Positions 199 through 15,966 of a stretch of DNA of 64,000 nt are shown here, piece by piece; within the stretch, counting starts at the first letter, position 1, and every line of letters begins with the position of its first letter. Origin of the DNA: Veillonella dispar. Lineage in GTDB: Bacteria > Bacillota > Negativicutes > Veillonellales > Veillonellaceae. The stretch covers positions 765,952-829,951 of the forward strand of contig NZ_LR134375.1 of NCBI RefSeq assembly GCF_900637515.1. The letters run 5' to 3'. The notes below the pieces were generated by a model. That model had not been told where the DNA came from and ran no database searches. It saw only the letters and a program-made list of their open reading frames with translations. Position numbers and translations under genes: made by a program.

Positions 199-1419
199 AT
201 GATGAAACGTGCGTTAATGGCTGCACTATGTTTTAGTTTTGTGACATTAGGTAGCCAAGCAATTGATATTAATATACCAGGTGCAGATCCTACAATTTCA
301 AAGGATGCATATCAAAACTATCGTAAGTCGGATGCTACAGCTAAGCAAATGGAGTCTGACGTAAATACTATGATAAGAAAACAATATGCTGATAATAAGC
401 CTAAAAACTGGTCTATAGATGAATTAGTTTACTTTGCAGAGGAATTAAATCACTCTGCAGGCTTTTCATCTTCTGTGTTTATTTTAAAGAATGATGGAGC
501 AAATATAAAGTTTACAATTCCTTCAGGTAGTCGATTCGGAGTAACTATTAAAGGGGATCCTATGACTACAGAAGTAAAACGGGGCAATTTTATCTTTAAT
601 GAAGGTAATTTAAAATACTCGATTCACAAGGAAAAAGAAGGAAACTCTAAGGCCAATACATTCTCATATCCGACCATTAAAAATGGTTCATGGGAAGTTA
701 GACAAAATCAAAAGGGAACTTTAGAAGGAGTCCTAAGCTTTAGAATGAAAGCTGATCCTTCATTATCTTACCAAGTTACTTATGATTTAAGTAAGTCTAG
801 AGAACTAGAATTGCTAAAGAAACATAATCAAGAATATGTATATAAAGAGCTAATGTCACCATTAGTTAATTATGTATTACCTTCAATTGAACCAGCAAAA
901 CAAGTACTTTCAAGAACTAAACCTTTTACTATAAAGGGATTTACATTCCAAACACTTAAATCGAGTAATTTAACGTATAGTGGTACTGAGGCTGATGCTA
1001 TTTATAGTTATGATGGTAAAGGGTATCGTGAGGGCGTCATGGTAAGAGAATTAACTCCAACAGAGATAGCGAATAAACATAAATTATTTGCTGAAGTAAT
1101 AGAGTTCTTTACGAAGTATAAGCCTTATTCTGGATATAAACCAATCCAATATGCTACTGTATGGAATGATGCTACTCCAGCTATTTATATGGAAGTAGAA
1201 CGATCTACATCGAAAATGTATATTCAATCGCTATATGATGATAAATATTTATATACTCACTTTATAATGACAGACTTAGATATTAAAATTCCATCAAAAG
1301 AATTAAGGGATGTTGTTCAATATGCTGAAAATTCAAATGATAAAGAACAATATTCCAAACGAATGGCAGGTATGAGTGCTATACCAAAGGGAATGTATGA
1401 AAGGTCAACTGTTAAATAA
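199..1419 (+). CDS. Secreted INIPGA-family protein, paralogue 1 of 4
   Basis: I do not recognise a named family. The 406-residue product has a signal peptide (about residues 1-21, ending SQA), directly followed by the motif IDINIPGADPTISKDAY. The same beginning occurs in the genes at 11738 and 19929 and in the broken gene at 26152, so this is a local paralogous family. Other shared blocks are a central LVNYVLPSI and a C-terminal VWNDATPAIYMEVE. There are no transmembrane segments after the signal peptide and no lipobox cysteine, so the mature protein is probably periplasmic or exported. It begins with two ATGs in tandem behind a GGATGAGAG ribosome binding site. The start is clear; the function is unknown. 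Confidence 0.8.
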   Translation: MMKRALMAALCFSFVTLGSQAIDINIPGADPTISKDAYQNYRKSDATAKQMESDVNTMIRKQYADNKPKNWSIDELVYFAEELNHSAGFSSSVFILKNDGANIKFTIPSGSRFGVTIKGDPMTTEVKRGNFIFNEGNLKYSIHKEKEGNSKANTFSYPTIKNGSWEVRQNQKGTLEGVLSFRMKADPSLSYQVTYDLSKSRELELLKKHNQEYVYKELMSPLVNYVLPSIEPAKQVLSRTKPFTIKGFTFQTLKSSNLTYSGTEADAIYSYDGKGYREGVMVRELTPTEIANKHKLFAEVIEFFTKYKPYSGYKPIQYATVWNDATPAIYMEVERSTSKMYIQSLYDDKYLYTHFIMTDLDIKIPSKELRDVVQYAENSNDKEQYSKRMAGMSAIPKGMYERSTVK

Positions 1420-1430
1420 GCTAGAAAATC

Positions 1431-1790
1431 ATGAATCGTAATAATTTTATTAACTATTTACAACAAGAATATATCTGTGATGTTGATTATCCATGGGAGA
1501 AATACCCAGACTATGTTGTTATCCGGCGTAGAGATAATCAGAAATGGTTTGCTGGAATCTTTGCTATTAAAGGGTATCAATTAGGTCAAGATACAAATGA
1601 ACCTATGGATGTAGTCAATCTAAAATGCGAACCTGATTTAATTCCAAATCTAATTCGTGAAAGTGGAATCTACCCTGCGTATCATATGAATAAACAACAC
1701 TGGATCTCGATGGATATTGAAAGATATGAAGATATAGAGAAACTTAAAATGTTAGTCGATATGAGCTATCGGTTGGTGGGGAAGAAGTAA
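1431..1790 (+). CDS. YjbR/MmcQ-family (CyaY-like fold) protein
   Basis: The 119-residue protein has the typical size of the MmcQ/YjbR family (formerly DUF419), which adopts a double-wing, CyaY-like fold often suggested to bind DNA. The sequence shows the family pattern: an early YPWEKYPDY segment, a central VVNLKCEPDLIPNLI, then GIYPAYHMNKQHWISM. It starts 11 bases after the upstream secreted-protein gene and may be read through from it, although the two functions are unrelated. The family's biological role is not established. Confidence 0.85.
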   Translation: MNRNNFINYLQQEYICDVDYPWEKYPDYVVIRRRDNQKWFAGIFAIKGYQLGQDTNEPMDVVNLKCEPDLIPNLIRESGIYPAYHMNKQHWISMDIERYEDIEKLKMLVDMSYRLVGKK

Positions 1791-1857
1791 GAGCATTTAG
1801 GCTAAATTGATATTTAAAATAAAAGAATAATTACATATTATTGTTATATGTAAAATT

Positions 1858-1910
1858 TACCACATATTTTCACTGTTACTTTAGTAAAGTGTTTATATGT
1901 GGTATTTTTT
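1858..1910 (+). terminator. Intrinsic terminator after the YjbR-like gene
   Basis: TACCACATAT (1858-1867) pairs with ATATGTGGTA (1895-1904), followed by six T. The loop holds a second self-complementary stretch (ACTTTAGTAAAGT). It separates the YjbR-like gene from the restriction operon. Confidence 0.75.
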
Positions 1911-1964
1911 GTAGTAGAATAAAATTAATTACTATGAATAAATAATGAAAAGTTAGGAGATATT

Positions 1965-3560
1965 ATGGGTGCCGAATTAAATCAAAAATTATTTAGTGCT
2001 GCTGATAGTTTACGCGGTAAGATGAGTGCTGATCAATATAAAGATTATCTATTAGGGTTAATATTCTATAAATATTTATCCGATAAATTATTGGAATCAA
2101 CAGTTGTAAAAGCTTATAAATCTCTTGATGAATACAATACTGTAGCAAAGCAAACAGAATTATATAAATCATATATTTTGGATGATAAAAGTAAAGATTT
2201 CTTTATTGCTACCATGTCTGATACATTGGGATATCATATAGAGCCTCAATATTTATTTAGTGAGCTTGCTAATGCTGTTAAAGATAATTCTTTTGAATTA
2301 GTTCATTTAAAAAATGCTTTTGTACGTTTAGAAACAGCATATAAACAATTTGAAGGTTTATTTGATGATATTGATCTAGATTCAAAACAATTAGGCGTTG
2401 ATGCTAACCAACGTAATATTACAATTAGTGAAGTGATAAAAAAACTTGATGAAGTTGATGTCTTAGGTCATGATGGCGATGTTATTGGTGATGCTTACGA
2501 ATATTTAATTGGTGAGTTTGCCGCTGGATCTGGTAAAAAAGCTGGTGAGTTTTATACACCTCAACAAGTATCAGATATGATGGCTCAAATAGTAACTATC
2601 GGTCAAGAGGATACACCATCATTTACAGTATATGACCCTACAATGGGTTCTGGTTCTTTGATGTTAAATGTACGTAAATATTTAAATAATCCAGATCGTG
2701 TTCAATATCATGGGCAGGAATTAAATGTAACCACATATAATCTTGCACGTATGAATCTTATTCTTCATGAGGTAAGTGCCGAAGATCAACGATTACATAA
2801 TGGGGATACATTGAATAAAGATTGGCCTACAGATGAGCCATATATGTTTGATTCTGTTGTTATGAACCCTCCGTACTCTGCTAACTGGTCAGCAGACCCT
2901 ACCTTTATGGATGACGCACGTTTTAATAGGTACGGAAAACTTGCCCCTAAGTCTAAGGCTGACTTTGCTTTCCTTTTACATGGTTTTTACCACTTAAAAA
3001 CATCTGGTACAATGGCTATCGTTTTGCCACATGGTGTTCTATTTAGAGGTGCAGCAGAAGGCACAATTCGCAAAAAATTATTAGAAGATGGTAGCATTTA
3101 TGCTGTTATCGGTATGCCTGCAAACCTTTTCTTTGGCACATCTATTCCTACAACTGTTATTATTCTTAAGAAGAACCGTAAAGGTCGTGATGTATTATTC
3201 ATTGATGCAAGTAATGATTTTACTAAGTTTAAAAATCAGAATAAATTAGAACCTGAGCATATTAAACGTATTGTTGATACATATAAAAACCGTGAAAGTA
3301 TTGAAAAATATGCTTATTTAGCTTCTTTTGAAGAAATTAAAGAAAATGACTTTAATCTTAACATTCCGCGCTATGTTGATACATTCGAAGAAGAAGCACC
3401 AATAGACATGGTTACACTAGGTGCGGAAATGAAAGCCATTAATGAAGAAGAATCAAAATTAGAACAAGACATTTATGATATGCTTCTTCAATTAGAATGT
3501 GCTGAGGAAGATAGAGAATGGTTAAATGGCGTACTAGAGGTATTTAATCATGAGAAATAA
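1965..3560 (+). CDS. hsdM: Type I restriction-modification DNA methyltransferase subunit HsdM
   Basis: This is the N6-adenine methyltransferase of a type I restriction-modification complex. It uses S-adenosylmethionine and acts with HsdS to methylate the recognition site. The 531 residues contain an N-terminal helical HsdM domain (about 10-150), GEFYTP (about 195-200), the AdoMet-binding motif I DPTMGSG (224-230) and catalytic motif IV NPPY (301-304). ATG 1965 follows AGGAGA at 1955-1960. The 3' end overlaps hsdS by 11 bases, so the two are translationally coupled. All key motifs are intact. Confidence 0.97.
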   Translation: MGAELNQKLFSAADSLRGKMSADQYKDYLLGLIFYKYLSDKLLESTVVKAYKSLDEYNTVAKQTELYKSYILDDKSKDFFIATMSDTLGYHIEPQYLFSELANAVKDNSFELVHLKNAFVRLETAYKQFEGLFDDIDLDSKQLGVDANQRNITISEVIKKLDEVDVLGHDGDVIGDAYEYLIGEFAAGSGKKAGEFYTPQQVSDMMAQIVTIGQEDTPSFTVYDPTMGSGSLMLNVRKYLNNPDRVQYHGQELNVTTYNLARMNLILHEVSAEDQRLHNGDTLNKDWPTDEPYMFDSVVMNPPYSANWSADPTFMDDARFNRYGKLAPKSKADFAFLLHGFYHLKTSGTMAIVLPHGVLFRGAAEGTIRKKLLEDGSIYAVIGMPANLFFGTSIPTTVIILKKNRKGRDVLFIDASNDFTKFKNQNKLEPEHIKRIVDTYKNRESIEKYAYLASFEEIKENDFNLNIPRYVDTFEEEAPIDMVTLGAEMKAINEEESKLEQDIYDMLLQLECAEEDREWLNGVLEVFNHEK

Positions 3561-4773
3561 ACCGAGAATACGATTTAAAGGATTTGCGGAAGATTGGGAA
3601 CAGTGTAAGTTGGGAAATTTGGGGACTTTAAAGAATGGAATGAATTTTTCTAAGGAGGCTATGGGGAAAGGATATCCATTTATAAATTTACAAAATATAT
3701 TTGGAAGCAATGTTATTGATTTAACTAAATTAGAAAAAGCTGAAGCAACAGACTCTCAACTAAAAGATTATAATCTTCAGAAAGGAGATGTACTTTTTGT
3801 TCGATCTTCGGTTAAGTTAGAAGGTGTCGGCGAGGCTGCTTTGATTTCTGAAGATTTAAAAGATACAACTTTTTCTGGGTTTATTATAAGATTTAGAGAT
3901 AATTATGGATTAGATTATAATTTTAAAAGATTTATATTTATAACAGTCTTGATTAGAAATCAAATTATGTCTCAAGCTACTAATAGTGCTAATAAAAATA
4001 TTAGCCAATCTGTTTTGAATAATCTTTATTTATTTATTCCAACAAAAGATGAGCAATCAAAAATCGGATTGATTTTTTCAAAGTTAGATAAATGTATTAC
4101 CCTTCATCAGCGTAAGCTTGAAAAACTTAAATTAGCTAAAAAAGCGTTATTGCAAAAATTATTCCCTAAAAATGGAAGTCAATTTCCTGAAATTAGATTT
4201 AAAGGTTTTACTGATGCTTGGGAACAGTGTAAGTTTTCAGATATTACATATTTATCAGGTATAAAAAATAAAGAAAATAAACCCTATGAAAGTTATTCAA
4301 TTTCTAATGAGTTTGGATTTATTCCTCAAGACGAACAATTTGAGAATGGTGGAACAATGAAAACTGCTGATAAAAGCATGTATTATATTGTTAGTCAAAA
4401 CTCCTTTGCTTATAATCCAGCTAGAATTAATGTTGGATCAATTGGTTATTATGATAAGCCTGATAATGTTATTGTTAGTTCTTTATATGAGGTTTTTAAG
4501 ACTACAGATATAGTCAGTGATAAATTCTTATGGCATTGGTTTAAATCAAATCAATTTAATCGTTTGATTGAAAAGTACCAAGAGGGTGGCGTTAGACTAT
4601 ATTTTTACTATGATAAATTGTGTAAGGGTACCATAGAATTACCAACTATTAATGAGCAAAATAAGATTTCTAATCTACTTGATGATTTAGACATGTATAT
4701 TACCCTTCATCAGCGTAAGCTAGATAAGTTACAAGAGGTGAAAAAAGGGTTGCTTCAAAAGATGTTTGTATAG
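3550..4773 (+). CDS. hsdS: Type I restriction-modification specificity subunit HsdS
   Basis: This subunit sets the DNA sequence recognised by the HsdMR complex. The 407 residues form two target recognition domains, each introduced by a similar segment (IRFKGF..DWEQCK near residue 6 and IRFKGFTDAWEQCK near residue 216). Each ends in a similar helical spacer (LHQRKLEKLK.AKKALLQK and LHQRKLDKLQEVKKGLLQK). The corresponding DNA is repeated: 3571-3611 resembles 4195-4235, and the 20 bases at 4099-4118 recur exactly at 4702-4721. Such repeats let recognition domains be exchanged in other systems. Only one hsdS is in the window. Confidence 0.96.
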   Translation: MRNKPRIRFKGFAEDWEQCKLGNLGTLKNGMNFSKEAMGKGYPFINLQNIFGSNVIDLTKLEKAEATDSQLKDYNLQKGDVLFVRSSVKLEGVGEAALISEDLKDTTFSGFIIRFRDNYGLDYNFKRFIFITVLIRNQIMSQATNSANKNISQSVLNNLYLFIPTKDEQSKIGLIFSKLDKCITLHQRKLEKLKLAKKALLQKLFPKNGSQFPEIRFKGFTDAWEQCKFSDITYLSGIKNKENKPYESYSISNEFGFIPQDEQFENGGTMKTADKSMYYIVSQNSFAYNPARINVGSIGYYDKPDNVIVSSLYEVFKTTDIVSDKFLWHWFKSNQFNRLIEKYQEGGVRLYFYYDKLCKGTIELPTINEQNKISNLLDDLDMYITLHQRKLDKLQEVKKGLLQKMFV

Positions 4774-4792
4774 TTTTGTGGGGTTGTGTTAT

Positions 4793-7700
4793 ATGGTTAA
4801 ATTGAAAATTACAAAAGAAGCTCAGCTTGAACAAAATTTAATTGAATTGCTTTGTGAGGGGCACGGGCAATGGACTTATCGTCCAGATTTAAAATCTGAA
4901 GCTGACTTATGGCGGAATTTACGTGATAAAATTGAAAATCGAAATAAGAGTGAACTAGATGGTCATGATTTAACTGATAGTGAATTTGAAAGAATTAAAT
5001 CTGAAATCCTAGCTAGTACCAAAACACCATTTGATGCGGCTAAATGGTTGCGTGGGGAAAAGGGAAAATGTTCTATTGTTCTTGAGCGTGATAAAGGTTT
5101 AGGACGTATAGAGCTAGTAGTTTATTCTAATCTTGAGAAGAATGGCGGTTTTTCTTCTTATGAGATTGTAAACCAAATTGCAAAAGGTAGCTCTAAATTA
5201 GAAGAGAGGGAACGTCGTTTTGATGTTACCTTATTGATTAGTGGATTACCAATTATTCAAATTGAGTTGAAAACTGCAATTGCTAAGGATGGAGTTAAAC
5301 AAGCTTATTATCAGATTGAAAAATATGTAGATGAGGGGACTTTCTCTAATACTATTTTTCAAACATTACAACTATTTGTGATGTCTAATGAGCAAACAAC
5401 ACGTTATATGGCTGCAGCCCCAAAAGGTGAGCTGCAGGAAAAGTTTATGTTCTCATGGCGCACAAGAGATAATACAAAGGTTGAGAATATCAACGAATTT
5501 GCTAAACAGGTATTAAATATACCTAGGGCTCATGAGTTGGTATCTGAATATATGATAGTCAGTGAAGAACCAAGTAATAAAGTTCTTATGGTATTACATC
5601 CATATCAAATTCATGCTATTGAAGCTATATTTAAAGCTGCTGGTAAACATGAGTCTGGCTATATCTGGCATGCTACAGGATCAGGTAAAACATTAACAAG
5701 TTTTGTATCTACTAAGTTATTGGCTCAAAAAGCGGGTGTAGACAGAACGATTATGTTGTTAGATCGAAAGGACTTAGACAATCAAACAACATCTGAGTTT
5801 ACTAAATTTGCATCTGCTTATTCTACAGGGGTTAACACTAACAATAATACATTGATTGTTGGTACTGGCAGTACAAGAGAACTTTCAAAAGCACTTATAT
5901 CGGATACAAGTACGAATGTAGTTATAGTTACTACACGCCAAAAGTTAAATAAGGCTGTTGCAGATCTGCAAGAATATAAGCCCGATAAATTAGCTATGTT
6001 ACGTGGAAAACATATTGTGTTTATTGTGGATGAATGTCATCGTGCTATTAGTGCTGAAAATATGGATGATATTAAAAAAGTATTCCCTAAATCAACGTGG
6101 TTTGGATTTACTGGAACACCTATTTTTGAAGAAAATAAAAAAAGTGCAGATGGACAATACGCACGAACTACACATGACCAATATGGAGAAGTGCTACATC
6201 GGTACACTATAAAAAATGCATTAGAAGATGGTGCTGTATTAGGCTTTCAAGTGGAGCATGAGTCTACAATTCATGACGATGAGATTGCTAATGTAGTATA
6301 TCGTGCTATGCGTGCGGATCAGAAAAATATTAGTTTTACTGATGAGGAGCTCGTATCTGCAGTTGAATCAATGAAAGATATTGATAAGGAAGGATATCTT
6401 CAAAGTGCTCACTATGAATCTGATGAACATATTTTATCAGTAATCCGTAAGATTTTAAGCCCTAATAACGCGTATCGTAAGTTTGTATTTAAAGATGGTA
6501 AACCAACAATGTCGGCTATTTTAACAACTAGCTCTATCAATATGGCGAAGCGTTATTATAAGGCTATTAAAGAGTTTACAGGTGATAAAAACTGGATAGA
6601 AACACAATTTCCTAATCAGCCTTTACGACAAGGTACCGTTATGAATGATCCTGATTTTCCTCGTGTGGCTATAACGTACTCTTTAGAGGAAAATACAAAG
6701 GATTCAGCAGAAAAAGAAGCTGAAATGGTAGAGATTATTGCTGAGTATAATAAGATGTTTGGAACGTCTTGGTCTGTTGAAAGTATCAATCGTTATAATG
6801 GGGATATTAACAATCGTTTAGCTCGTAAAAAGGGTGAGTTTAAAGAGTTCGGCAAACATCTAGATTTAGTTATTGTTGTCGATCGATTACTTACTGGCTT
6901 TGATGCACCAAGATGTCAGGCGCTTTTTGTAGATAGAAACCTTCAATATGCTGGTCTTATACAAGCTTTTTCTAGAACAAATAGGACGTATAAAGGGAAA
7001 GATAAAGGTCTTATTACGACCTTTAGAAAACCTGCTACTATGAAAGAACATGTATATGCGGCAACACGTTTATATTCTCAAACAAATAATAACAGTAGTT
7101 TAATATACCCAACATATGAAGAATCTAAAAAGAAATTTAATGCAGCTTATATGGCTTTGGTTAAATTAGATGCAGTAAATTCTAATAACCCTATTACAGA
7201 ACATGCTCCCATATCAGATAGAATTAATTTTGTGAAGTGTTTTCAAGATTTAAATAAAGCATATCGTGCTATAGCCTCATATGATGAATTCAATATAGAG
7301 CTTGATAGTGACAAGAATGGTACTTTCACTAAGAAAATTGCACTTATAGAAGATAATATAGGTTTGTATAATACTATAAAGGCCTCTTTAAAACCTGATG
7401 ACAAAACTGAACCAGGTATTGAACTTATTGACTTCTTTGATTCTAATACAGTTCAAACTTATACAGTTGATAAAAGTTATATAGATGCTTTATTAAGTGA
7501 ATATGAGCCGAATAGTCAAGATACTCGTGCAAAGATTGAAGATGCCTTAACTAAATTAAATAAGAGTGAATCCGTTCGAGTTATCTACAAAAATATCCTT
7601 GATGATATTGATACACACGTAATAGATAAAGATAGTAATTTATTGAAAATTAAACGAGAATACTTTACCAAGGCATATGACTCTATTGTTGAAGACTTTG

Positions 7701-7927
7701 CTTCAACATGGTGTGTTGATGTAGATGAACTTATGGTATCTGTAAATCAATCTACAGTTGGTGAGGATATATATAACAAAAATCGTATAGTAGGTAGTGC
7801 TAACTATCCTGTATATGTACAAAAACACCCTGATTCCGATCCATTTTCATACCCTCAACATATGATAGAAGCATGGGAAGTATGTTTGTTTGAAGAAGTT
7901 ATTCCGTTGAGAGATGAGTTGAAATAG
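4793..7927 (+). CDS. hsdR: Type I restriction endonuclease subunit HsdR
   Basis: This is the motor and nuclease subunit that translocates and cuts unmethylated DNA in an ATP-dependent way. Of the possible starts I prefer ATG 4793 (MVKLKITKEAQ); an in-frame upstream start at 4766 would overlap hsdS and adds nothing family-like. The roughly 1044 residues show an N-terminal nuclease region with an IELK motif (about residue 156), then a superfamily 2 helicase with HPYQ, Walker A ATGSGKT (about 295) and DECH (about 413). A second helicase domain contains LLTGFDAP and QAFSRTNR. The order HsdM-HsdS-HsdR on one strand with little spacing indicates one operon. No disruption is seen. Confidence 0.96.
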   Translation: MVKLKITKEAQLEQNLIELLCEGHGQWTYRPDLKSEADLWRNLRDKIENRNKSELDGHDLTDSEFERIKSEILASTKTPFDAAKWLRGEKGKCSIVLERDKGLGRIELVVYSNLEKNGGFSSYEIVNQIAKGSSKLEERERRFDVTLLISGLPIIQIELKTAIAKDGVKQAYYQIEKYVDEGTFSNTIFQTLQLFVMSNEQTTRYMAAAPKGELQEKFMFSWRTRDNTKVENINEFAKQVLNIPRAHELVSEYMIVSEEPSNKVLMVLHPYQIHAIEAIFKAAGKHESGYIWHATGSGKTLTSFVSTKLLAQKAGVDRTIMLLDRKDLDNQTTSEFTKFASAYSTGVNTNNNTLIVGTGSTRELSKALISDTSTNVVIVTTRQKLNKAVADLQEYKPDKLAMLRGKHIVFIVDECHRAISAENMDDIKKVFPKSTWFGFTGTPIFEENKKSADGQYARTTHDQYGEVLHRYTIKNALEDGAVLGFQVEHESTIHDDEIANVVYRAMRADQKNISFTDEELVSAVESMKDIDKEGYLQSAHYESDEHILSVIRKILSPNNAYRKFVFKDGKPTMSAILTTSSINMAKRYYKAIKEFTGDKNWIETQFPNQPLRQGTVMNDPDFPRVAITYSLEENTKDSAEKEAEMVEIIAEYNKMFGTSWSVESINRYNGDINNRLARKKGEFKEFGKHLDLVIVVDRLLTGFDAPRCQALFVDRNLQYAGLIQAFSRTNRTYKGKDKGLITTFRKPATMKEHVYAATRLYSQTNNNSSLIYPTYEESKKKFNAAYMALVKLDAVNSNNPITEHAPISDRINFVKCFQDLNKAYRAIASYDEFNIELDSDKNGTFTKKIALIEDNIGLYNTIKASLKPDDKTEPGIELIDFFDSNTVQTYTVDKSYIDALLSEYEPNSQDTRAKIEDALTKLNKSESVRVIYKNILDDIDTHVIDKDSNLLKIKREYFTKAYDSIVEDFASTWCVDVDELMVSVNQSTVGEDIYNKNRIVGSANYPVYVQKHPDSDPFSYPQHMIEAWEVCLFEEVIPLRDELK

Positions 7928-8004
7928 CATTATTCAAGTATTAGTGGATAAGAGCTAGAAAAATAAAATATTTTAGTTTTGTCCATATATGGTCAGGAAA
8001 GTTA

Positions 8005-8046
8005 AAAAGTAGTATTAGACACTATATGGTGTGTAATACTACTTTT
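8005..8046 (+). terminator. Hairpin terminator after hsdR
   Basis: AAAAGTAGTATTA (8005-8017) pairs perfectly with TAATACTACTTTT (8034-8046), followed by an AT-rich run. It ends the restriction operon and separates it from the Gabija genes. Confidence 0.65.
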
Positions 8047-8151
8047 ATATTTTGTTAAATATATGTAGTGATGAGCCGATAATTTTTTTTATTATAAAAA
8101 TGCTTATAGAGCTTTGCCGTGTTCTAATTCCGTTGAAAGGTGAAGGGTAAA

Positions 8152-9870
8152 ATGTATATTAAAGAGATTAAGACGATATCAAATTATAGAAATTTAAGTG
8201 GTCAATCTATGGTTTTTGATAAAGATTTAAACTACATTATTGGTGAGAATAATATAGGAAAAACTAATATTTTAGAATTGTTAAATATAATACTATCAGA
8301 AGGCAAGTTTAAAGAAGCTGATTTTGCTGATTTATCGAGCCCAATTGAAGTAAAATATACTATTTCATATGATGATTCAAGCATAGGTTTCTTTGAAGAT
8401 AATTTTGATATAAATGAAGATAACTGTATAACTATAATTGCAGAACAAGATCTTATTGATGGTAGGATTTCTTATTACCATGATACACCTAATAAAACGA
8501 GTATAAGCTTTTCTATTATAAAAAAAATAAATTCTCTTTATTATTTTGCTCAGAGATTACCATCTAAAGAACTTGACTTTAAAGGAAGTAATGGGAGTAG
8601 TAAAACTCTTAATTACTTGATAAAAAAAAGTCTTGAGATAGTAAAGTTAGAAGAGTCAGATCTTATTAATAGCCCAAAGATTAATGATGTCATTGGGGAA
8701 GTAAATAAATCGATTAATTACATAAATGATATAACAGGTGATTCTGTCAATGCCTCTTTAGATTCAAGTCATGAAAAACTATTAGCTCGATTACTTATAT
8801 TGGGAGATCAAAATGGAAGGGAGCTGACATCTTTAGGGGAGGGCATTCAATATGCTTTTAATATAATTCTACAAATTATTGATGCAATTTATAGGTCTAT
8901 GTTAGGAAAAACACCAGAGGAGTTTAGAGAACGATTAATATGTAGTAGTGAGAAATACTATTTCCCATTAATATTGCTTTTGGATGAGCCAGAGATTCAT
9001 CAGCACCCATATAGGCAACGAAGTTTAATGAAAAAGATTAACGATCTATTAAATAATAAAAATGAAAGTTTTATCAAACTAATAAAGGGATTATTTAACA
9101 TTGATGGTTTGAAAGGACAAATCTTTATAGCAACTCATTCTCCTAATATTTTGCTAAATGACTATAAGCAATTTTTAAGAATTTATAAAGATAATGCGAC
9201 ACAAACAATTAAAGTAGCTTCGGGAAATTCATTTGATTTAGATGTAAAATTGTATAAACATTTATTGCATAATTTTTTATATCTTAAAGAAGCTACATTT
9301 AGTAAGAAAATTATATTTGTTGAAGGAGATACTGAAAATGGAGCAATTCCGATTTTTGCTGAAAAAAAGAAATTTGATCTTGATGAAAATGGGGTTGGTG
9401 TAATTAAGTTAGATGGTGCGGATAGTGTTAAATATTGTATGGAATTATACAAATTATTTGGTATCGAGACCTATGCAATTATAGACGCTGATAAGAAAGA
9501 GAGATATCACAATAATGCGAATATATTTTTTACTACTGAAAAAGATTACGAAGAAGATGTATTCGCATCATTTGAATTAAAAGATTATTTAACGTGTTGT
9601 AAAGAACTAGATATACTACAGTCTATGATTGGTATTATAAAAAAATATAAACGTGATTTAGATGTATCTAAGTTTAAAGAAGATCCTAGTATAATTGAGT
9701 TAGATGAGACTACTGCAAAATCTATTGTGGGTGAATGTAAAGAGGCGCAGTTGAAGAAGTTAAAAGACTCAAAAAATGCATGTAAAGGTGCGATACTAGC
9801 AAAGTATGTAACTAAAATACCTTCTGCTTTTGATGAATTGATAGAAAAAGTTAAAGGGGAAGTAGTATGA
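8152..9870 (+). CDS. gajA: Gabija GajA: OLD-family ATPase/TOPRIM nuclease
   Basis: GajA is the nuclease half of the Gabija anti-phage system; in characterised examples it is a sequence-sensitive DNA nicking enzyme controlled by nucleotides. The product (572 residues from ATG 8152) has an ABC/SMC-type ATPase with Walker A GENNIGKTN (about residues 30-38), Walker B LLLDEPEIHQHP (about 275) and an ATHSPN switch (about 327). A C-terminal TOPRIM domain follows, with FVEGDTENG (catalytic Glu, about 389) and IIDADKK (about 443). I chose ATG 8152 over the in-frame GTG at 8140 because AAAGGTGA (8136-8143) lies eight bases before it. The gene overlaps gajB by ATGA. Length and pairing with a UvrD-like helicase fit Gabija rather than a solitary OLD nuclease. 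Confidence 0.9.
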   Translation: MYIKEIKTISNYRNLSGQSMVFDKDLNYIIGENNIGKTNILELLNIILSEGKFKEADFADLSSPIEVKYTISYDDSSIGFFEDNFDINEDNCITIIAEQDLIDGRISYYHDTPNKTSISFSIIKKINSLYYFAQRLPSKELDFKGSNGSSKTLNYLIKKSLEIVKLEESDLINSPKINDVIGEVNKSINYINDITGDSVNASLDSSHEKLLARLLILGDQNGRELTSLGEGIQYAFNIILQIIDAIYRSMLGKTPEEFRERLICSSEKYYFPLILLLDEPEIHQHPYRQRSLMKKINDLLNNKNESFIKLIKGLFNIDGLKGQIFIATHSPNILLNDYKQFLRIYKDNATQTIKVASGNSFDLDVKLYKHLLHNFLYLKEATFSKKIIFVEGDTENGAIPIFAEKKKFDLDENGVGVIKLDGADSVKYCMELYKLFGIETYAIIDADKKERYHNNANIFFTTEKDYEEDVFASFELKDYLTCCKELDILQSMIGIIKKYKRDLDVSKFKEDPSIIELDETTAKSIVGECKEAQLKKLKDSKNACKGAILAKYVTKIPSAFDELIEKVKGEVV

Positions 9871-11624
9871 CATTAGAAGATCGATTAAAAGAATTCCATT
9901 CTGGTGATGAGGAACAGTTAAGTTTTATTTTCTCGGATAAACCTAGGTTGATAGTTAACGCACCAGCGGGTTGTGGTAAAACAACAGCTATGGTTAGTAA
10001 AATTGCTAGAGAGTTAAGTCTTGGTAATATTGAAAGTAATAAAAAAGTCTTAGCAATGTCATTTAGTGTAAATGCTTCGATTCGTATAAAGTCAGATGTC
10101 AAAGAGCTTTTGCCTTCATTGGTAGATAACTCGAAATTACTTTTAAAGAAGTTAGATATCGCTAATTATCATAATTTTGCAATGAGATTACTTTATAAAT
10201 ATGGATTTTTATTGAATGAGGAATTTATAAATCTTTCAGAGTTTAGAATCATTAGTGATAGTATTGTTATAAAGGAAAACTTAATTTCCTCATCCGATAA
10301 CTATATAATCGAAGAGTTAATAAAAATAGTTACGTCTTTTGATTTTTCTCAAATTGAATCTGTTATGGATCAATATTGGGAAACAATTAATAATACTCTT
10401 ATTAATAAAAAAATAATTACATATAATGGTATTTTAATAGCGGCTAAAAAACTTTTATCTAATGATAATATTAAGAAATTTTATACTAATTATTACTCAA
10501 TGATTATTATAGATGAATTTCAAGATACTAATATTCTTAGTTACTATTTTATAAAATCATTAATTGATAATAATAAAGTAGTTTTTCTAGGTGATGGTAT
10601 TCAAAGAATTTATGGTTTTTTAGGCGCATTAGATGATGTGTTTCAACGTGTAGAAACTGACTATAGTCCACAGATTATATCATTCAAGAATAACTATAGA
10701 TATAATAACACCTCTATAAAAGAACTAGATCATCTAATAAGAGCTTATGTAGATCAATATATAGATCCAAAGTTAGAGTCTTCTATATTAATAAAAAAAC
10801 TACAATCAGATACTGAAGAGGTTAATTTTATTAGTGAAGGAATAAAGAATATAATAGAAAGTAATTGTAATGTTGCTATACTACTTCGAGCAGGATGGCA
10901 AGGTGGCATTATAGCTGAAAAATTAAAAGATGAATCAATTCATTTTTTTAATGGGCTTTATTCGGAAGATGATTGTGAATTTATTGATTTTTATAATGTT
11001 GCAATAGAGGAGTTTTATAATAACGTTTCAGGTAATGCAGTTCAAAGTTCATTAAAAAAATGCCTGCAAGCTATTAAGAATCGTGAACATGAAATTTATA
11101 CTAATGACCAAAAAAAATATATATTTGATTCGTTATATAAGTTGTTAGAAAAGTTATTTGAAGTATCTAAAAATTGGGAGGGTACCACAAAAGAAAGATA
11201 TAAAAATATTGAGTTTAGTCTTAATAATAATGGCTTAAAACATATGATAGAATATCTTGATGAAAAAGTTGTATTAACTACTATTCACTCAGCTAAAGGA
11301 TTAGAATGGGACTATGTAATTTTGCCACAAATGAATAAAAGTGTTTTTCCTTCATGGAAACATATGTGTAAGAAGTGTCATAATTTAAATAGTTTTAAAT
11401 TAGATAATGATTCCTGCACAAGTTTGTTATTACCAGAGATGAAAACTTTGTTTAGGGAAGAGTTAAGTGTACTCTATGTTGCTTTAACACGTGCAAAGAA
11501 AAATGTTTTTTTTACTGTTAATACTGGTATAAATACACATGGGTATCCTAAGAAGGAAAATTGTTTTATTAATTTACCTGGTATTAATCAATTAGATTTT
11601 GCGTGGAATGATTATGTTAGTTAG
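9867..11624 (+). CDS. gajB: Gabija GajB: UvrD/Rep-like helicase
   Basis: GajB is the superfamily 1 helicase-like partner of GajA; the two form a large complex, and GajB is thought to sense DNA ends and hydrolyse nucleotides. The 585 residues show motif I NAPAGCGKTT (about 31-40), motif II IIIDEFQDTN (about 213-222), motif III GDGIQRIYGFLGA (about 242), motif V TTIHSAKGLEWDYV (about 471) and motif VI LYVALTRAKK (about 535). All are intact. It is somewhat longer than the best-known GajB. Its start overlaps the gajA stop (ATGA). The region is clearly AT-rich with many AAT/TTA codons, as in the restriction genes, which fits a horizontally acquired defence block. Confidence 0.9.
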   Translation: MTLEDRLKEFHSGDEEQLSFIFSDKPRLIVNAPAGCGKTTAMVSKIARELSLGNIESNKKVLAMSFSVNASIRIKSDVKELLPSLVDNSKLLLKKLDIANYHNFAMRLLYKYGFLLNEEFINLSEFRIISDSIVIKENLISSSDNYIIEELIKIVTSFDFSQIESVMDQYWETINNTLINKKIITYNGILIAAKKLLSNDNIKKFYTNYYSMIIIDEFQDTNILSYYFIKSLIDNNKVVFLGDGIQRIYGFLGALDDVFQRVETDYSPQIISFKNNYRYNNTSIKELDHLIRAYVDQYIDPKLESSILIKKLQSDTEEVNFISEGIKNIIESNCNVAILLRAGWQGGIIAEKLKDESIHFFNGLYSEDDCEFIDFYNVAIEEFYNNVSGNAVQSSLKKCLQAIKNREHEIYTNDQKKYIFDSLYKLLEKLFEVSKNWEGTTKERYKNIEFSLNNNGLKHMIEYLDEKVVLTTIHSAKGLEWDYVILPQMNKSVFPSWKHMCKKCHNLNSFKLDNDSCTSLLLPEMKTLFREELSVLYVALTRAKKNVFFTVNTGINTHGYPKKENCFINLPGINQLDFAWNDYVS

Positions 11625-11693
11625 AATCTATGAGTTTATACAATAATCTATTTTATATGTATGTTAGGTAACCCCAAAAAAAGTTGTTTAATT

Positions 11694-11703
11694 ATGTTAC
11701 AAT
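11694..11703 (+). promoter_or_regulatory. Extended -10 promoter motif ATGTTACAAT (copy 1)
   Basis: The motif has a TGT element in front of TACAAT. The same ten bases occur at 15321-15330 and 19879-19888, each time 30-45 bases before the start codon of a secreted-protein gene. No good -35 box is visible, as expected for an extended -10 promoter. Confidence 0.5.
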
Positions 11704-11737
11704 ACACTTAATATTACTATTTTGTGGAGAGATGTAT

Positions 11738-12949
11738 ATGTTAAAACGATTATTATTAAGTGCTATTGTATTGAGCGCTGTTAGTGTATCTAGTTATGCT
11801 GTTGATGTGAATATTCCTGGTGCAGATCCAAGTATTCCTAAGGATGTGTATGTACAGGGGGTATATAGTACTGAAAAGATTAAGAATGCTTATGATGTAG
11901 AAACTAGAAAGATAATAGATTCGATTATATCGAAAAAGGGAATACCTAAAGGGTTTGGTACTGCTGTTAATGATGATGAAGTTGAATCCTTTAAAAATGA
12001 TTTATATTCTATCAAGCGTCGTCAATTTGACGGTAATACAATTGTGAATTTACATAATAATGATGGTGGACTATCAGTTACACTTCCATTTAGTGCAATA
12101 CAGAAAGAGGCTATAACTGATTTTCCTAATTCAAATGCTCATTATTTAGTAGACTCCCCAATGATTGCTGCAGGTATTATTGAAAATAAAACACCAAACA
12201 CTACTGAAAAAACTGATGTGGTTTTTCAATATGACGGCTTAAGTAAAAGTTCTTTGAGAAAGACAACGCTCAGAGGGGCTGTTGAGATGGAGATTATTGG
12301 TTTAAAATTTGAGCTGAGTAAACATCCAAATCAAGAGTATAATGTTATCCTTTATCCGCGTGCAACGAAGCTAGTTACATCCAATGATATTAATACAATA
12401 ATGGCCAATTATATATTGCCTTCAATTCATTCTCTTCAAGAGTTAGCTGACTATAGTAAGGTTGAGACATATAAAACGTATTCCTTTAGAGTACCTAAAA
12501 CAGCTGTAAAAGATAAAAAGCTAAATGAAAGAGTAGAGGGTGTAACCTTTACAATTGATAAAAATATAAATCAACAGATTCGTATTGAACCTAATAATGA
12601 AACTGAAAAAGGTTTATTTAGTACAGTTGATGAAATTCGTATATTAAATAAGATTGATAATAAGTCGGCAGAGCTTTTTGGTATCCCTGGAGCAAGAATG
12701 ATAACTAAGGGACTCCATACTTATGTTTGGAATGATGGCATACCAGGGTTATTACTTGATCTTGAGTTAGATAATCAACAGGGGATATTGATGTTTATTA
12801 CTTATGATGAAAACCATAAGTATGTAAATACAATCCAATACCCGCTAGATAATGGTGTATATAGTAAAGTGCAATTACGTAAATTAATTACTGATGTAAA
12901 ATTATCGTCTACTGGTAATCTATATGCAGGTGATGTTTGGATTATTTAG
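11738..12949 (+). CDS. Secreted INIPGA-family protein, paralogue 2 of 4
   Basis: The product (403 residues from ATG 11738) begins with a signal peptide (MLKRLLLSAIVLSAVSVSSY) followed by AVDVNIPGADPSIPKDVY, matching paralogues 1, 3 and 4. The central block is MANYILPSI and the C-terminal block VWNDGIPGLLLDLE. ATG 11738 has GGAGAGA at 11725-11731. In-frame starts at 11684 and 11732 exist, but the former would put unrelated residues before the signal peptide and overlap the promoter motif. Function is unknown. It closes the block that starts with paralogue 1 and contains the restriction and Gabija genes. Confidence 0.8.
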   Translation: MLKRLLLSAIVLSAVSVSSYAVDVNIPGADPSIPKDVYVQGVYSTEKIKNAYDVETRKIIDSIISKKGIPKGFGTAVNDDEVESFKNDLYSIKRRQFDGNTIVNLHNNDGGLSVTLPFSAIQKEAITDFPNSNAHYLVDSPMIAAGIIENKTPNTTEKTDVVFQYDGLSKSSLRKTTLRGAVEMEIIGLKFELSKHPNQEYNVILYPRATKLVTSNDINTIMANYILPSIHSLQELADYSKVETYKTYSFRVPKTAVKDKKLNERVEGVTFTIDKNINQQIRIEPNNETEKGLFSTVDEIRILNKIDNKSAELFGIPGARMITKGLHTYVWNDGIPGLLLDLELDNQQGILMFITYDENHKYVNTIQYPLDNGVYSKVQLRKLITDVKLSSTGNLYAGDVWII

Positions 12950-12974
12950 TTAAAACTGTCTATAAATGAAATAA

Positions 12975-13000
12975 GGAAAGAAATCCTTCGATTTCTTTCC
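12975..13000 (-). terminator. Toxin mRNA terminator, copy 1
   Basis: Eleven base pairs are formed by GGAAAGAAATC and GATTTCTTTCC around a four-base loop. In the second copy (14883-14910) the stem has changed, but pairing survives as a G-U pair only when read on the minus strand; the plus strand would have an A-C mismatch. This favours a minus-strand terminator, at the end of the toxin transcript. Confidence 0.5.
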
Positions 13001-13026
13001 CTGTTTAGATATGATATAATTTATAT

Positions 13027-13118
13027 CAAAGTGAGGCATAAATGGTTTCGACGCCAGACTTCGCTTCTAGATTTATTGAATTGAAGAAACGGTCTGACTT
13101 CTATGTCGGGCCTTTTTT
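13027..13118 (+). ncRNA. Antisense RNA antitoxin of a type I toxin-antitoxin pair, copy 1
   Basis: An extended -10 box TGATATAAT ends at 13020, predicting a start near 13027. An intrinsic terminator follows: GGTCTGAC (13091-13098) pairs with GTCGGGCC (13105-13112), with six T at 13113-13118. The resulting RNA of about 92 nt is complementary to the 3' untranslated part of the minus-strand toxin transcript, the arrangement of RatA against txpA in Bacillus subtilis. The RNA ends and the regulation are predicted, not shown. Confidence 0.65.
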
Positions 13119-13158
13119 CATGCCCCAATTAGAAAGCTAGCTTTCAGCTAGAGGTCAA

Positions 13159-13236
13159 TCACTTTGCTGCCATGATAATGGTCGCTACAAGTATGCCAAA
13201 GGAAATCATTAACGATAACACTTTGAGTGTACTCAT
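13159..13236 (-). CDS. 25-residue hydrophobic toxin of a type I toxin-antitoxin pair, copy 1
   Basis: The short gene encodes MSTLKVLSLMISFGILVATI followed by IMAAK. This is one membrane-spanning helix after MST and resembles the small holin-like/TxpA-type peptides of Firmicutes, which damage the membrane when overproduced. The ribosome binding site GGCGGTGATC (13240-13249 on the minus strand) almost matches the full anti-Shine-Dalgarno sequence. Copy 2 differs by one residue (Leu4 to Phe) while three other base changes are silent, which indicates selection on the peptide. The toxin role is inferred from size, composition and the antisense gene. Confidence 0.7.
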   Translation of the reverse strand: MSTLKVLSLMISFGILVATIIMAAK

Positions 13237-13299
13237 ATTGATCACCGCCAATCTCTAGAAGATTAACAAAGGCTGGACCCATTTAGAGGCCTCAAGTTC

Positions 13300-13328
13300 A
13301 ATATAATGTTGTGAATAATAAAAGTAAA
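13300..13328 (-). promoter_or_regulatory. Toxin promoter, copy 1
   Basis: Read on the minus strand, TTTACT (-35, 13323-13328) is followed after 17 bases by TATATT (-10, 13300-13305). The same boxes and spacing occur in copy 2. Transcription would start near 13293, giving an untranslated leader of about 57 bases. Confidence 0.6.
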
Positions 13329-13334
13329 TAGATT

Positions 13335-13378
13335 AGAGGTTCCTAATAGTCACCTAGGTGACCAATAGGAACCTCTTT
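13335..13378. terminator. Bidirectional hairpin, AGAGGTTCCTA type, copy 1
   Basis: AGAGGTTCCTA pairs with TAGGAACCTCT, enclosing a second inverted repeat GTCACC/GGTGAC, and the stem ends in TTT. It lies just after the stop of the minus-strand OFA transporter gene and probably ends its transcript. Related hairpins occur at 15243-15286 and 16003-16047. Confidence 0.65.
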
Positions 13379-13402
13379 CGTTTTGTAATTAGTTCGGGGG
13401 AT

Positions 13403-14623
13403 TTAACAGTATCTTTTATGCAGACCTCGTTTGCCGTATATTTTTAAGATTATAGCAATAATTGTATTTAATACAAATAGAAGCGCAAAGCATACTAAGG
13501 CTGTAGTATATCCATATCCTGCTTCGTGAAAGTATGACACGAGCATAGGACCAACTATACCAGCTAATCCCCAAGCGGTTAGAATGCGGCCATGAATAGT
13601 GGAGAGTTGGCGTATGCCATAGAGGTCTGCAAGATATGCTGGCATACAGGCGAATCCGCCGCCATAGCAGGTGATAATGAGAAGAATTAAAACTTGGAAT
13701 GTTAGAGCATTATTGGTTTCGGCAAGTACGTAGAATGCGATGATTTGTATAATAAAGAATAGTATGTAAGTTTGTGCACGGCCAAAGTAGTCGGAGATAG
13801 TGGACCATGCAATGCGACCTCCACCATTGAAGATACCGATGATACCAACTAGTGATGCAGCTGCTGCAGGTGTCATACCAATGGTTTCTTGTGCCATAGG
13901 GGATGCTAAGGATAGAAGACCTATACCACAGGTAATATTAATAAAGAAAATCCACCAAAGGGCACCAAATTGCCAAGTTTTCATAGCCTCGTTGGCTAGC
14001 ATGCCATGGTTGTGAACGTACATAGTGGATTTATCTTTCGTAGTTCGAGGTGGTTGTTTTTGTTGAGGTGCTTTCAAATAGAGCGAAGAGGCGCCCATAA
14101 CCACTAGATAGATTACACCGAGGATAATGAAGTTATTTACTAATCCCACTTGAGCTACGAGGAATTGCATAAGTGGTCCTGCAATGAGTGAAGCAAATCC
14201 AAAACCCATAATGGCTAACCCGGTGGCAAATCCTGGGCGATTTGGAAAGTATTTTACCAGTGTAGAAACTGGTGTTATATAACCAATACCTAGTCCGATA
14301 CCACCGATGATACCATAGAATAGATAGAGTAAGGTAAGATTATGGACACTAAGTGCATAAGCAGTACCTAATAGGCCTGCCACCCAGAATAACATAGCAA
14401 GAAGGCCGCTTTTCTTGGGACCTATTTTTTCTGCAAAGGATCCTAAAAAGCCTGCAGACAGTCCAAGCATCAGGATAGCTAGGGAGAAGGTCCATGTTGT
14501 TTGAGACATAGTAAATCCCATATCTGCCATAATAGGTCGTGTGAGCACGCTCCATGCGTACACACTACCGATGGATATATGCAGACCAATGGCAGCTAGT
14601 GCAATAAGCCAACGATTTCTCAT
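13403..14623 (-). CDS. OFA-family major facilitator transporter (oxalate/formate antiporter-like)
   Basis: The 406-residue protein has about 12 membrane segments and the start typical of the OFA subfamily of the major facilitator superfamily (MRNRWLIALAAIGLHISIGS, then VYAWSV), which includes oxalate/formate antiporters and related monocarboxylate carriers. In the second half the family-like GGGRIAWSTISDYFGR is present. ATG 14621-14623 has AAAGGAG seven bases upstream. The substrate cannot be read from the sequence. The leader upstream looks like a riboswitch of the ZTP type, which would tie the carrier to one-carbon or formate metabolism. The gene is flanked by two 419-bp direct repeats. Confidence 0.85.
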   Translation of the reverse strand: MRNRWLIALAAIGLHISIGSVYAWSVLTRPIMADMGFTMSQTTWTFSLAILMLGLSAGFLGSFAEKIGPKKSGLLAMLFWVAGLLGTAYALSVHNLTLLYLFYGIIGGIGLGIGYITPVSTLVKYFPNRPGFATGLAIMGFGFASLIAGPLMQFLVAQVGLVNNFIILGVIYLVVMGASSLYLKAPQQKQPPRTTKDKSTMYVHNHGMLANEAMKTWQFGALWWIFFINITCGIGLLSLASPMAQETIGMTPAAAASLVGIIGIFNGGGRIAWSTISDYFGRAQTYILFFIIQIIAFYVLAETNNALTFQVLILLIITCYGGGFACMPAYLADLYGIRQLSTIHGRILTAWGLAGIVGPMLVSYFHEAGYGYTTALVCFALLFVLNTIIAIILKIYGKRGLHKRYC

Positions 14624-14689
14624 AAGAAAACTCCTTTCATATCGGTGAAATGATTAAAAATTTATATAGCAAATTTGCTATGAGAGAAC

Positions 14690-14795
14690 AAAAAAAGACC
14701 GCCTGAACAAAAGCTTGCCCAGACGGTCGGCTATCACACGATGTGCGCTACTGTGCATGTAGTCAATTCTACGAATCCGTCAGCCCAGTAGTAAT
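14690..14795 (-). promoter_or_regulatory. Structured leader with terminator, candidate ZTP (pfl) riboswitch
   Basis: Read on the minus strand: a helix CUACUG/CAGUAG (14786-14791 with 14748-14753) encloses GGCUGACGG and a small hairpin GUAG/CUAC. A hairpin CACA/UGUG follows, then CCGUCUGGGCA. Its first part can pair with the upstream GACGG as a pseudoknot, or can form the terminator stem GACCGUCUG/CAGGCGGUC followed by seven U. The order of helices, the CUGRCG joint and the CCGYCUGGGC ending match ZTP riboswitches, whose usual forms are ACUGGCG and CCGCCUGGGC; here both pairing partners differ together. The class is my inference. The terminator itself is clear and lies about 70 bases before the transporter start. 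Confidence 0.6.
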
Positions 14796-14882
14796 ATATT
14801 ATAAATATAGCAATTAAGAGGATATCTTGTCGATGATATAAGTCACTATCGTATGCACCATAAACATTTGTAATTGAAAATA

Positions 14883-14910
14883 GGGAAAGAAATCCTTTGA
14901 TTCCTTTCCC
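14883..14910 (-). terminator. Toxin mRNA terminator, copy 2
   Basis: On the minus strand GGGAAAGGAATC pairs with GATTTCTTTCCC (one G-U pair) around AAAG, followed by TATTTT. It is the counterpart of 12975-13000, with a longer stem and a better T run. Confidence 0.55.
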
Positions 14911-14935
14911 TATTTAGATATGATATAATTTATAT

Positions 14936-15026
14936 CAAAGTGAGGCATAAATGGTTTGGACGCCAGACTTCGCTTCTAGTAAGTAAAATTGAAGAAACGG
15001 TCTGACTTCTATGTCGGGCCTTTTTT
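14936..15026 (+). ncRNA. Antisense RNA antitoxin, copy 2
   Basis: TGATATAAT (ending 14929) is the promoter. The terminator is the same GGTCTGAC/GTCGGGCC hairpin (14999-15020) plus six T (15021-15026). The middle of the RNA differs from copy 1 around 14981-14989, where unrelated short AT-rich bases replace each other, so the two antitoxins may be partly specific to their own toxin transcripts. Confidence 0.65.
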
Positions 15027-15066
15027 CATACCACGATTAGAAAGCTAGCTTTCAGCTAGAGGTCAA

Positions 15067-15144
15067 TCACTTTGCTGCCATGATAATGGTCGCTACAAGT
15101 ATGCCAAAGGAAATCATCAATGATAATACTTTGAATGTACTCAT
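15067..15144 (-). CDS. 25-residue hydrophobic toxin of a type I toxin-antitoxin pair, copy 2
   Basis: It encodes MSTFKVLSLMISFGILVATI followed by IMAAK, identical to copy 1 except Phe4. The same GGCGGTGATC ribosome binding site precedes it. It is too short for ordinary gene finders and would be missed without the cassette context. Confidence 0.7.
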   Translation of the reverse strand: MSTFKVLSLMISFGILVATIIMAAK

Positions 15145-15207
15145 ATTGATCACCGCCAATCTCTAGATGATTAGCAAAGGCTGGACCCATTTAGAGGCCT
15201 CAAGTTC

Positions 15208-15236
15208 AATATAGTGCTGTCAATAATAAAAGTAAA
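15208..15236 (-). promoter_or_regulatory. Toxin promoter, copy 2
   Basis: TTTACT (15231-15236) and TATATT (15208-15213), read on the minus strand, are 17 bases apart, exactly as in copy 1, although the spacer has changed at several positions. Confidence 0.6.
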
Positions 15237-15242
15237 TAGATT

Positions 15243-15286
15243 AGAGGTTCCTAATAATCACCTTGGTGACCAATAGGAACCTCTTT
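15243..15286. terminator. Bidirectional hairpin, AGAGGTTCCTA type, copy 2
   Basis: Same structure as 13335-13378. Here it lies between divergent promoters (toxin copy 2 on the left, secreted protein on the right), so it may be a passenger of the duplication rather than a needed terminator. Confidence 0.6.
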
Positions 15287-15320
15287 CGTTTTGTAACTAT
15301 TATAATGGAATAGATTAATT

Positions 15321-15330
15321 ATGTTACAAT
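15321..15330 (+). promoter_or_regulatory. Extended -10 promoter motif ATGTTACAAT (copy 2)
   Basis: Same ten bases as at 11694 and 19879, 39 bases before the ATG of the secreted protein at 15370. Confidence 0.5.
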
Positions 15331-15369
15331 ACAAATAAGATAATAGTTTTTAGGGAGAGGGAGACTCAT

Positions 15370-15966
15370 ATGAAACGTTGTATTACATTACTAAGTCTTG
15401 GTCTATGTTTAGCATTACCAATGCTTTCACAAGCTAACGATATTAAACCTCTTATGCATGTTACGAATGTACATAATGGTCAATATGATGCGGCATTAGA
15501 TGCTATTACAGATACAAAGTTTTATGGACCGTATCAATTCCGAGTATTAAAGAATGCTATCGAAACACAGGGTGAAACGAAGGACATTGATGGTAGGGCG
15601 TTTAGAACCTCTGATGGGGTATTTATGCATGTAAAGGCTAGATCTATTGATAGTACGAGTTCCACGTTAGATGCTGAGGTTAATGAGATTGTTAAAGATA
15701 GGACGGTTCCTGAACCTACCGTAAAGATGGTATTGCCTGTTAAGCATGATGTAATAGGGGTCAATAATGATGGTGTGCGTAGTTTGCTAGCCGAATTTAT
15801 GTATGGCTGGCCATTACATAATAGGACGGATATGGTATTAGTTACTGATTATGAAGATACTCGTTACTATTATAATTTGCAGTTTTATAGAGACAAGCTA
15901 CCTGAAGGTATTCGCATTGAGCAGTTGCGCCAAATGATTATGGATGCGCAGTTCAGCTATAAATAA
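15370..15966 (+). CDS. Secreted hypothetical protein, 198 residues
   Basis: I do not recognise a family. The product has a clear Sec signal peptide (MKRCITLLSLGLCLALPMLS, then QAND), and the rest is soluble with mixed charge. It lacks the INIPGA motif of the larger secreted family but shares with it the promoter motif and a C-terminal tendency (LPEGIRIEQLRQMIMDAQFS resembles the ..QLRNMLTDVKL ending of paralogue 3). It may be a remote or shortened relative; this is a weak inference. GGAGAGGGAGA lies upstream of the ATG. An AGAGGTTCCTA-type hairpin follows the stop. Confidence 0.75.
   Translation: MKRCITLLSLGLCLALPMLSQANDIKPLMHVTNVHNGQYDAALDAITDTKFYGPYQFRVLKNAIETQGETKDIDGRAFRTSDGVFMHVKARSIDSTSSTLDAEVNEIVKDRTVPEPTVKMVLPVKHDVIGVNNDGVRSLLAEFMYGWPLHNRTDMVLVTDYEDTRYYYNLQFYRDKLPEGIRIEQLRQMIMDAQFSYK

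Follow-up and report, generated by a model that had tools for sequence, protein, structure and literature searches.

Exported Veillonella proteins with a PsbP-like domain and apparently exchanged bodies share a defence hotspot with probable type I toxin-antitoxin repeats

Results

A family of exported two-domain proteins in Veillonella dispar

Four related genes in a window of 64,000 nucleotides from the genome of Veillonella dispar belong to a family of exported proteins with a predicted PsbP fold in the C-terminal domain. The account that we consider probable, with real room for doubt, is that these are non-enzymatic binding proteins of the envelope, that their bodies are exchanged by homologous recombination, and that they share a hotspot with defence cargo. 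The binding role in the envelope is the best guess from the features described below.

The four genes, here called A (199-1419), B (11738-12949), C (19929-21272) and D (26152-27489), are all located on the plus strand. Each encodes a signal peptide with the (I/V)D(I/V)NIPGA head, here called the PGAD head, close behind it, followed by segments similar to LVNYVLPSI and VWND. For B, a TTG start codon at position 11684 was dropped, as the ATG at 11738 fits better. Member A contains two predicted domains, and seven other species have an orthologue of it at this locus. The members are only about 19-32% identical to A, but chance resemblance is excluded because every complete member in the window matches the family profile with an E-value below 1e-100. 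The initial annotation had described a four-member family defined by the signal peptide and the INIPGA motif; all four genes are real and carry the motifs, but D is broken by a single in-frame TGA at 26608-26610 and is probably a pseudogene, unlike its intact orthologue in one of the related species (G003; the window genome is G000), and the family is larger than the window. The complete genome of 2.12 Mb encodes ten two-domain members, the four in the window and six at 2.04-2.05 Mb. Two further relatives contain the C-terminal domain: a single-domain protein of 198 amino acids with a signal peptide, encoded at 15370-15966 on the plus strand (family profile E 4e-8), and a protein of 319 amino acids encoded at 1.828 Mb.

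The second cluster (L014) also contains genes for further small secreted proteins at 8434-9009, 14219-14800 and 14797-15369, one of which is weakly BamE-like (E 0.0025, below the cut-off). An IS200-type transposase gene (Pfam Y1_Tnp) is present in the window in two identical copies, at 33266-33727 and 52649-53110, and it also adjoins A in G006 (L043, 12950-13414).

Relatives of the family were found in 21 of the 381 genomes of the class, representing three of its 102 genera. These are Veillonella, in which 11 of 15 species have two-domain members, and two sister genera that have single distant relatives only; the search of the remaining 99 genera gave no relative. The alignment of the whole family contained no stretch of sufficient conservation for a profile search of genome contigs, and such a search with A alone identified Veillonella infantium only. 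Within the limits of the library searched, neither the family nor the hotspot described below was found to be described in the literature.

The C-terminal domain is predicted to have a PsbP fold

The family has no match in Pfam, NCBIfam, PADLOC or among the PDB sequences, and so no curated library searched gives it a name; the initial annotation likewise knew of none. More specifically, none of the PsbP, DUF1795 or LpqN models in Pfam matched the 54 family members. Weak Pfam matches to Rad9 and Clostridium_P47 were disregarded, as they fell below the cut-offs.

A model of the mature B protein, predicted with AlphaFold2 from an alignment of 54 family sequences, had a pLDDT of 83 and a pTM of 0.87. 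In a Foldseek search of the PDB, the model matched PsbP with an E-value of 9e-6 and a probability of 1.00, and all 17 matches below 0.001 were PsbP or PsbP-like subunits of photosynthetic complexes. The order of strands and helices in residues 212-364 of the model is that of an alpha-beta sandwich with an antiparallel sheet, a middle helix and a C-terminal helix. When the N-terminal domain was modelled by itself (pLDDT 75), Foldseek gave no significant match, which is why the PsbP match is assigned to the C-terminal domain; the best structural matches of the N-terminal domain, SciW, Tsi3 and PsbP, had E-values of about 0.02 or above and are only suggestive. There is no profile similarity between the two domains, and the idea that the PsbP domain was duplicated in tandem was rejected for want of profile support.

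The first ten residues of mature B, which include the PGAD motif, are confidently placed in the model (pLDDT about 91), for which reason it is more likely that the motif forms a packed part of the structure than a free sorting tail. The near-invariant residues of the family are P, G, A, Y, W, N, S, D and R; they include no triad-like set and do not look catalytic. In two members from related species the AxA site is replaced by the lipobox CLSGC, so the family includes lipoproteins. In the published list of 78 outer membrane proteins of Veillonella parvula (PMC5491611), locus A is seemingly absent, where its gene number was interpolated from hydA (Vpar_1188) only and the genome was assumed to be that of DSM 2008.

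The superfamily to which the C-terminal domain can be compared is that of PsbP, Mog1, DcrB (DUF1795) and LpqN. Apart from the match to PsbP structures, there are weaker matches to SciW, Tsi3 and mycobacterial Apa, and many members of the superfamily are exported or lipid-anchored, as in the family described here. The family differs in that it has no sequence match to the members in Pfam, NCBIfam or the PDB, and its proteins have, in addition, a beta domain at the N-terminus that contains two long helices, and a head with an invariant PG. A two-domain periplasmic protein that also has a Mog1/PsbP-like domain is PA1624 of Pseudomonas aeruginosa, to which no function has been assigned (PMC7716261). 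However, the PsbP-like domain of PA1624 is the N-terminal one, its other domain is OmpA-like, and it is not a sequence relative of the family. Since PsbP-fold proteins have many functions, the fold itself says little about the role.

One role suggested by the fold is immunity. Tsi3 is a PsbP-like DUF1795 protein that confers periplasmic immunity against Tse3, and the family could be an orphan array of similar periplasmic or surface proteins that protect against toxins delivered by neighbours. Both models match the Tsi3 fold with high probability, although with E-values of 0.009-0.06, and the many divergent paralogues, some of which are lipoproteins, their gain and loss and their exchangeable bodies are features that such an array may be expected to have. 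However, the Tsi3 matches are weaker than those to PsbP, no toxin-like gene was seen adjoining a member when the neighbours were judged by eye, and such an array would not be expected to have the conserved PGAD head. Moreover, the bodies of the close allele pair of A in G000 and G006 are identical at 95% of the residues and at 88% of the four-fold sites, which points to constraint more than to an arms race. We therefore regard immunity as a rather unlikely role.

It is unlikely, too, that the exported members block phage adsorption or DNA entry and are kept in the hotspot for this reason. Such a role would suit the two members that flank the restriction and Gabija genes, and Foldseek identified phage-encoded lipoproteins of the same fold (E 2e-6 and 3e-5), one of which bears the name "host cell surface-exposed lipoprotein". 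DcrB, which belongs to the superfamily described above, takes its name from phage adsorption. Against this, six of the ten members are located in the separate cluster at 2.04-2.05 Mb, where the neighbours are ordinary secreted-protein genes and not defence genes, C and D are surrounded by metabolic genes, the family has no sequence relative in phage and plasmid records, and PADLOC gave no match for it.

Variable bodies behind constant heads

A binding role in the envelope is thus the reading that we retain, and the members at loci A and B have a further property, in that a constant head is followed by a body that varies between species. The constant head of B (11685-11840, plus strand) comprises the promoter, the signal peptide and the PGAD codons, and is 86-98% identical in four other species to about position 11790, after which the identity falls off. 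Similarly, A in the window genome and in G011 is 92-100% identical from 100 bases before the window to window base 300, and 17-86% identical thereafter.

The contrast is also seen at silent sites. We compared four-fold sites in the head (codons 1-36) and in the body (after codon 48) with a Fisher test and used infC, located about 3 kb upstream, as a control. For A and its orthologue in G011, 12 of 15 sites were identical in the head and 15 of 53 in the body, as compared to 75 of 76 in infC (p 0.0005). The corresponding numbers for A and G012 were 14 of 14 in the head and 44 of 87 in the body (p 0.0002). The silent identity of the head is thus 80-100% for these two species, and the neighbouring infC is 96-99% conserved. 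The same contrast was obtained for B in comparison with G006, G012 and G014 (p 0.001-0.006), while it was weaker for B and G011 (p 0.06), A and G009 (p 0.05) and A and G008 (p 0.07), and not significant for A in comparison with G003 and G013. Neither C nor the single-domain gene showed a contrast between head and body at silent sites.

In a tree inferred from the bodies, with the heads removed, the B bodies of G006 and G012 grouped with C (support 97/86), and those of G000, G011 and G014 grouped with the lipoprotein group; the tree has long branches, some of which may be misplaced. Because the silent sites of the bodies are near saturation while the promoter and head are nearly identical and infC is 96-99% conserved, the orthologues of A and B are best read, from these sequence comparisons, as the outcome of allele replacement behind a constant head. 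The suggestion in the initial annotation that the members may be variable themselves is borne out in this form, as constant heads with replaced bodies between species.

Plain vertical divergence, by which the bodies would evolve rapidly and the heads slowly under the constraints on a signal peptide and a promoter, would require no exchange. The heads are indeed functional sequences, and the pattern at C and the single-domain gene is consistent with vertical descent. Nevertheless, we consider this explanation quite unlikely for A and B, as the silent sites in the A body of G011 are near chance (28%) when those of infC in the same pair are 99% identical, the silent sites of the heads in G011 and G012 are conserved to the extent given above, and B bodies from two different clades are found behind one head.

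A defence hotspot between rplT and an MFS transporter gene

The proposed allele replacement at A and B would fall in a region that is also variable in its other genes. The initial annotation placed the restriction and Gabija genes exactly between A and B, which they are, except that a gene of the YjbR/MmcQ family (yjbR, 1431-1790, plus strand; Pfam PF04237, E 5e-16) separates A from the restriction genes. Next in order on the same strand are hsdM (1965-3560), hsdS (3550-4773) and hsdR (4766-7927), identified with PADLOC, which belong to the cargo that varies between species and together form a type I restriction-modification system, and the Gabija genes gajA (8140-9870; PADLOC GajA, E 5e-149) and gajB (9867-11624; PADLOC GajB, E 4e-203). 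The Pfam domains of the Gabija pair are AAA_15, an OLD-like TOPRIM and UvrD, corresponding to the ATPase and TOPRIM of GajA and to the adjoining UvrD-like helicase GajB. The right flank is formed by a gene for an MFS transporter (13403-14623, minus strand) that is 89-98% identical in nine other species. Directly upstream of this gene is a ZTP riboswitch (Rfam RF01750, 45 bits) at 14710-14797 on the minus strand.

We compared the interval from rplT to the MFS gene across 14 species, each represented by one genome, using gene maps and PADLOC searches of the cargo. The core flanks are the same and the defence genes between them differ across species, as in a defence hotspot. The cargo consists of a type I restriction-modification system and an MkoC-like protein in G013, Avs2 and an MkoC-like protein in G008, Drt2 and an MkoC-like protein in G010, type II/IIG-like restriction genes in G011, PDC-S06, PD-T7-3 and an MkoC-like protein in G005, and different type I systems in G009, G014, G004 and G002, where several of the PADLOC names represent partial matches and are domain hints only. 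The block between A and B is accordingly not conserved but differs in every related species examined, in agreement with the expectation of the initial annotation, although the comparison is between species and not between strains. Cargo is present without A in G010, G005, G004 and G002, and without B in G008 and G013.

A gene for a protein of about 650-710 amino acids recurs on the left side of the hotspot, beside A or yjbR (L049, 9989-11947; L046, 12543-14558; L052, 14107-16248; L061, 13688-15676). The copy in L049, which belongs to G008, has a Schlafen group 3 helicase domain (Pfam E 2e-99), and it is possible that this is an uncharacterised defence gene. The window system has a single hsdS gene, while in type I systems of other species a gene for a protein of about 310-340 amino acids is surrounded by additional partial hsdS genes (L047, 6247-14518; L050, 6969-15098; L058, 12205-16999; L060, 9926-17222; L062, 9930-18000). 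This suggests phase-variable, invertible specificity genes in these species.

Hol_Tox modules are repeated within the hotspot

The hotspot also contains a repeat of 430 bp that is probably a type I toxin-antitoxin module. The first copy is located at 12961-13389, with the toxin MSTLKVLSLMISFGILVATIIMAAK encoded at 13236-13159 on the minus strand and a predicted antisense RNA on the plus strand that ends at a terminator at 13091-13112. The second copy, at 14871-15296 with the toxin at 15144-15067 on the minus strand, is 94% identical to the first. The assignment is based on the hydrophobic peptide of 25 amino acids, which just meets the Hol_Tox cut-off (Pfam PF16935; E 6e-5, 23.3 bits at a cut-off of 23.3) and is conserved in 19 intact copies of the module, and on an overlapping -10 box and a terminator on the opposite strand. 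These are features shared with the Hol_Tox (txpA/RatA-like) modules; the difference is that here a single locus has as many as five full copies, interspersed with accessory genes. Within the genus, copies of at least 350 bases are confined to this hotspot, and the five intact copies in G011 stand between successive accessory genes.

In six loci (L044, L046, L047, L049, L054 and L057, from G006, G012, G013, G008, G003 and G014, respectively) there are copies of the module that lack the toxin. These end or resume at nearly the same points around the toxin region, close to positions 162 and 282 of the element, as would be seen if there were an antitoxin-only form of the module.

A module is located directly upstream of B in the four other species compared (toxin-less in G006), and in the window its place is taken by the end of gajB. 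On its right side, the defence block can therefore be taken to end at about 11685, the left edge of the B head, just upstream of the B promoter. That A and B serve as mutual landing points, so that recombination between these paralogues inserts, removes or exchanges the block, was the mechanism put forward in the initial annotation, but, for all that the block lies exactly between the two genes and has its right border at the B promoter, this is very unlikely, because the similarity of A and B in DNA is limited to about 45 nt at 80% identity and two further stretches, of about 20 nt each, cargo is found at the site even in species that lack A or B, the Hol_Tox modules at the borders, 94% identical to each other, are a better repeat, and neither hybrid A/B genes nor A-B deletion junctions were seen in the species mapped.

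Discussion

Constant heads and toxin-antitoxin repeats, rather than homology between A and B, are the best reading of the hotspot borders. The mechanism that we propose begins with a Sec signal peptide that would export the members, including one subgroup as lipoproteins, to the Veillonella envelope. Each would consist of a C-terminal domain with the PsbP/Mog1 fold, an N-terminal beta domain and the conserved PGAD head, and would be expressed from a locus-specific constant head containing the promoter, the signal peptide and the PGAD codons. The bodies would be replaced between species by homologous recombination, with one crossover in or near the head and the other in conserved downstream DNA, which may be the Hol_Tox module at B and yjbR at A. 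Natural transformation is a probable route for the exchange, and natural competence is common in Veillonella parvula (PMC5397411). The interval from rplT to the MFS gene, which contains loci A and B, would also take up different defence systems, and the family would thus bracket the defence genes as a result of both being cargo in one exchange hotspot.

Core defence hotspots are known in Pseudomonas aeruginosa (PMC10250203) and defence islands in Escherichia coli (PMC10121019). The interval described here resembles these in that conserved flanking genes enclose different defence systems in each genome, but differs in that the cargo is mixed with exchangeable genes for exported proteins and with repeated type I toxin-antitoxin modules. 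A more far-reaching reading, which we put forward as speculative and doubtful, is that type I toxin-antitoxin repeats hold and shuffle both the genus-specific exported binding proteins, with their cassette-exchanged bodies, and the phage-defence systems, so that protection of the outer envelope and intracellular defence would be traded together.

These results supply a fold and a probable evolutionary mechanism for a sizeable, unnamed family of exported proteins in Veillonella, an abundant genus of the human mouth and gut. The interval between rplT and the MFS gene provides a defined, conserved address where new defence systems of Veillonella may be sought, and the proposed exchange of bodies would be a testable mechanism in a naturally competent diderm Firmicute.
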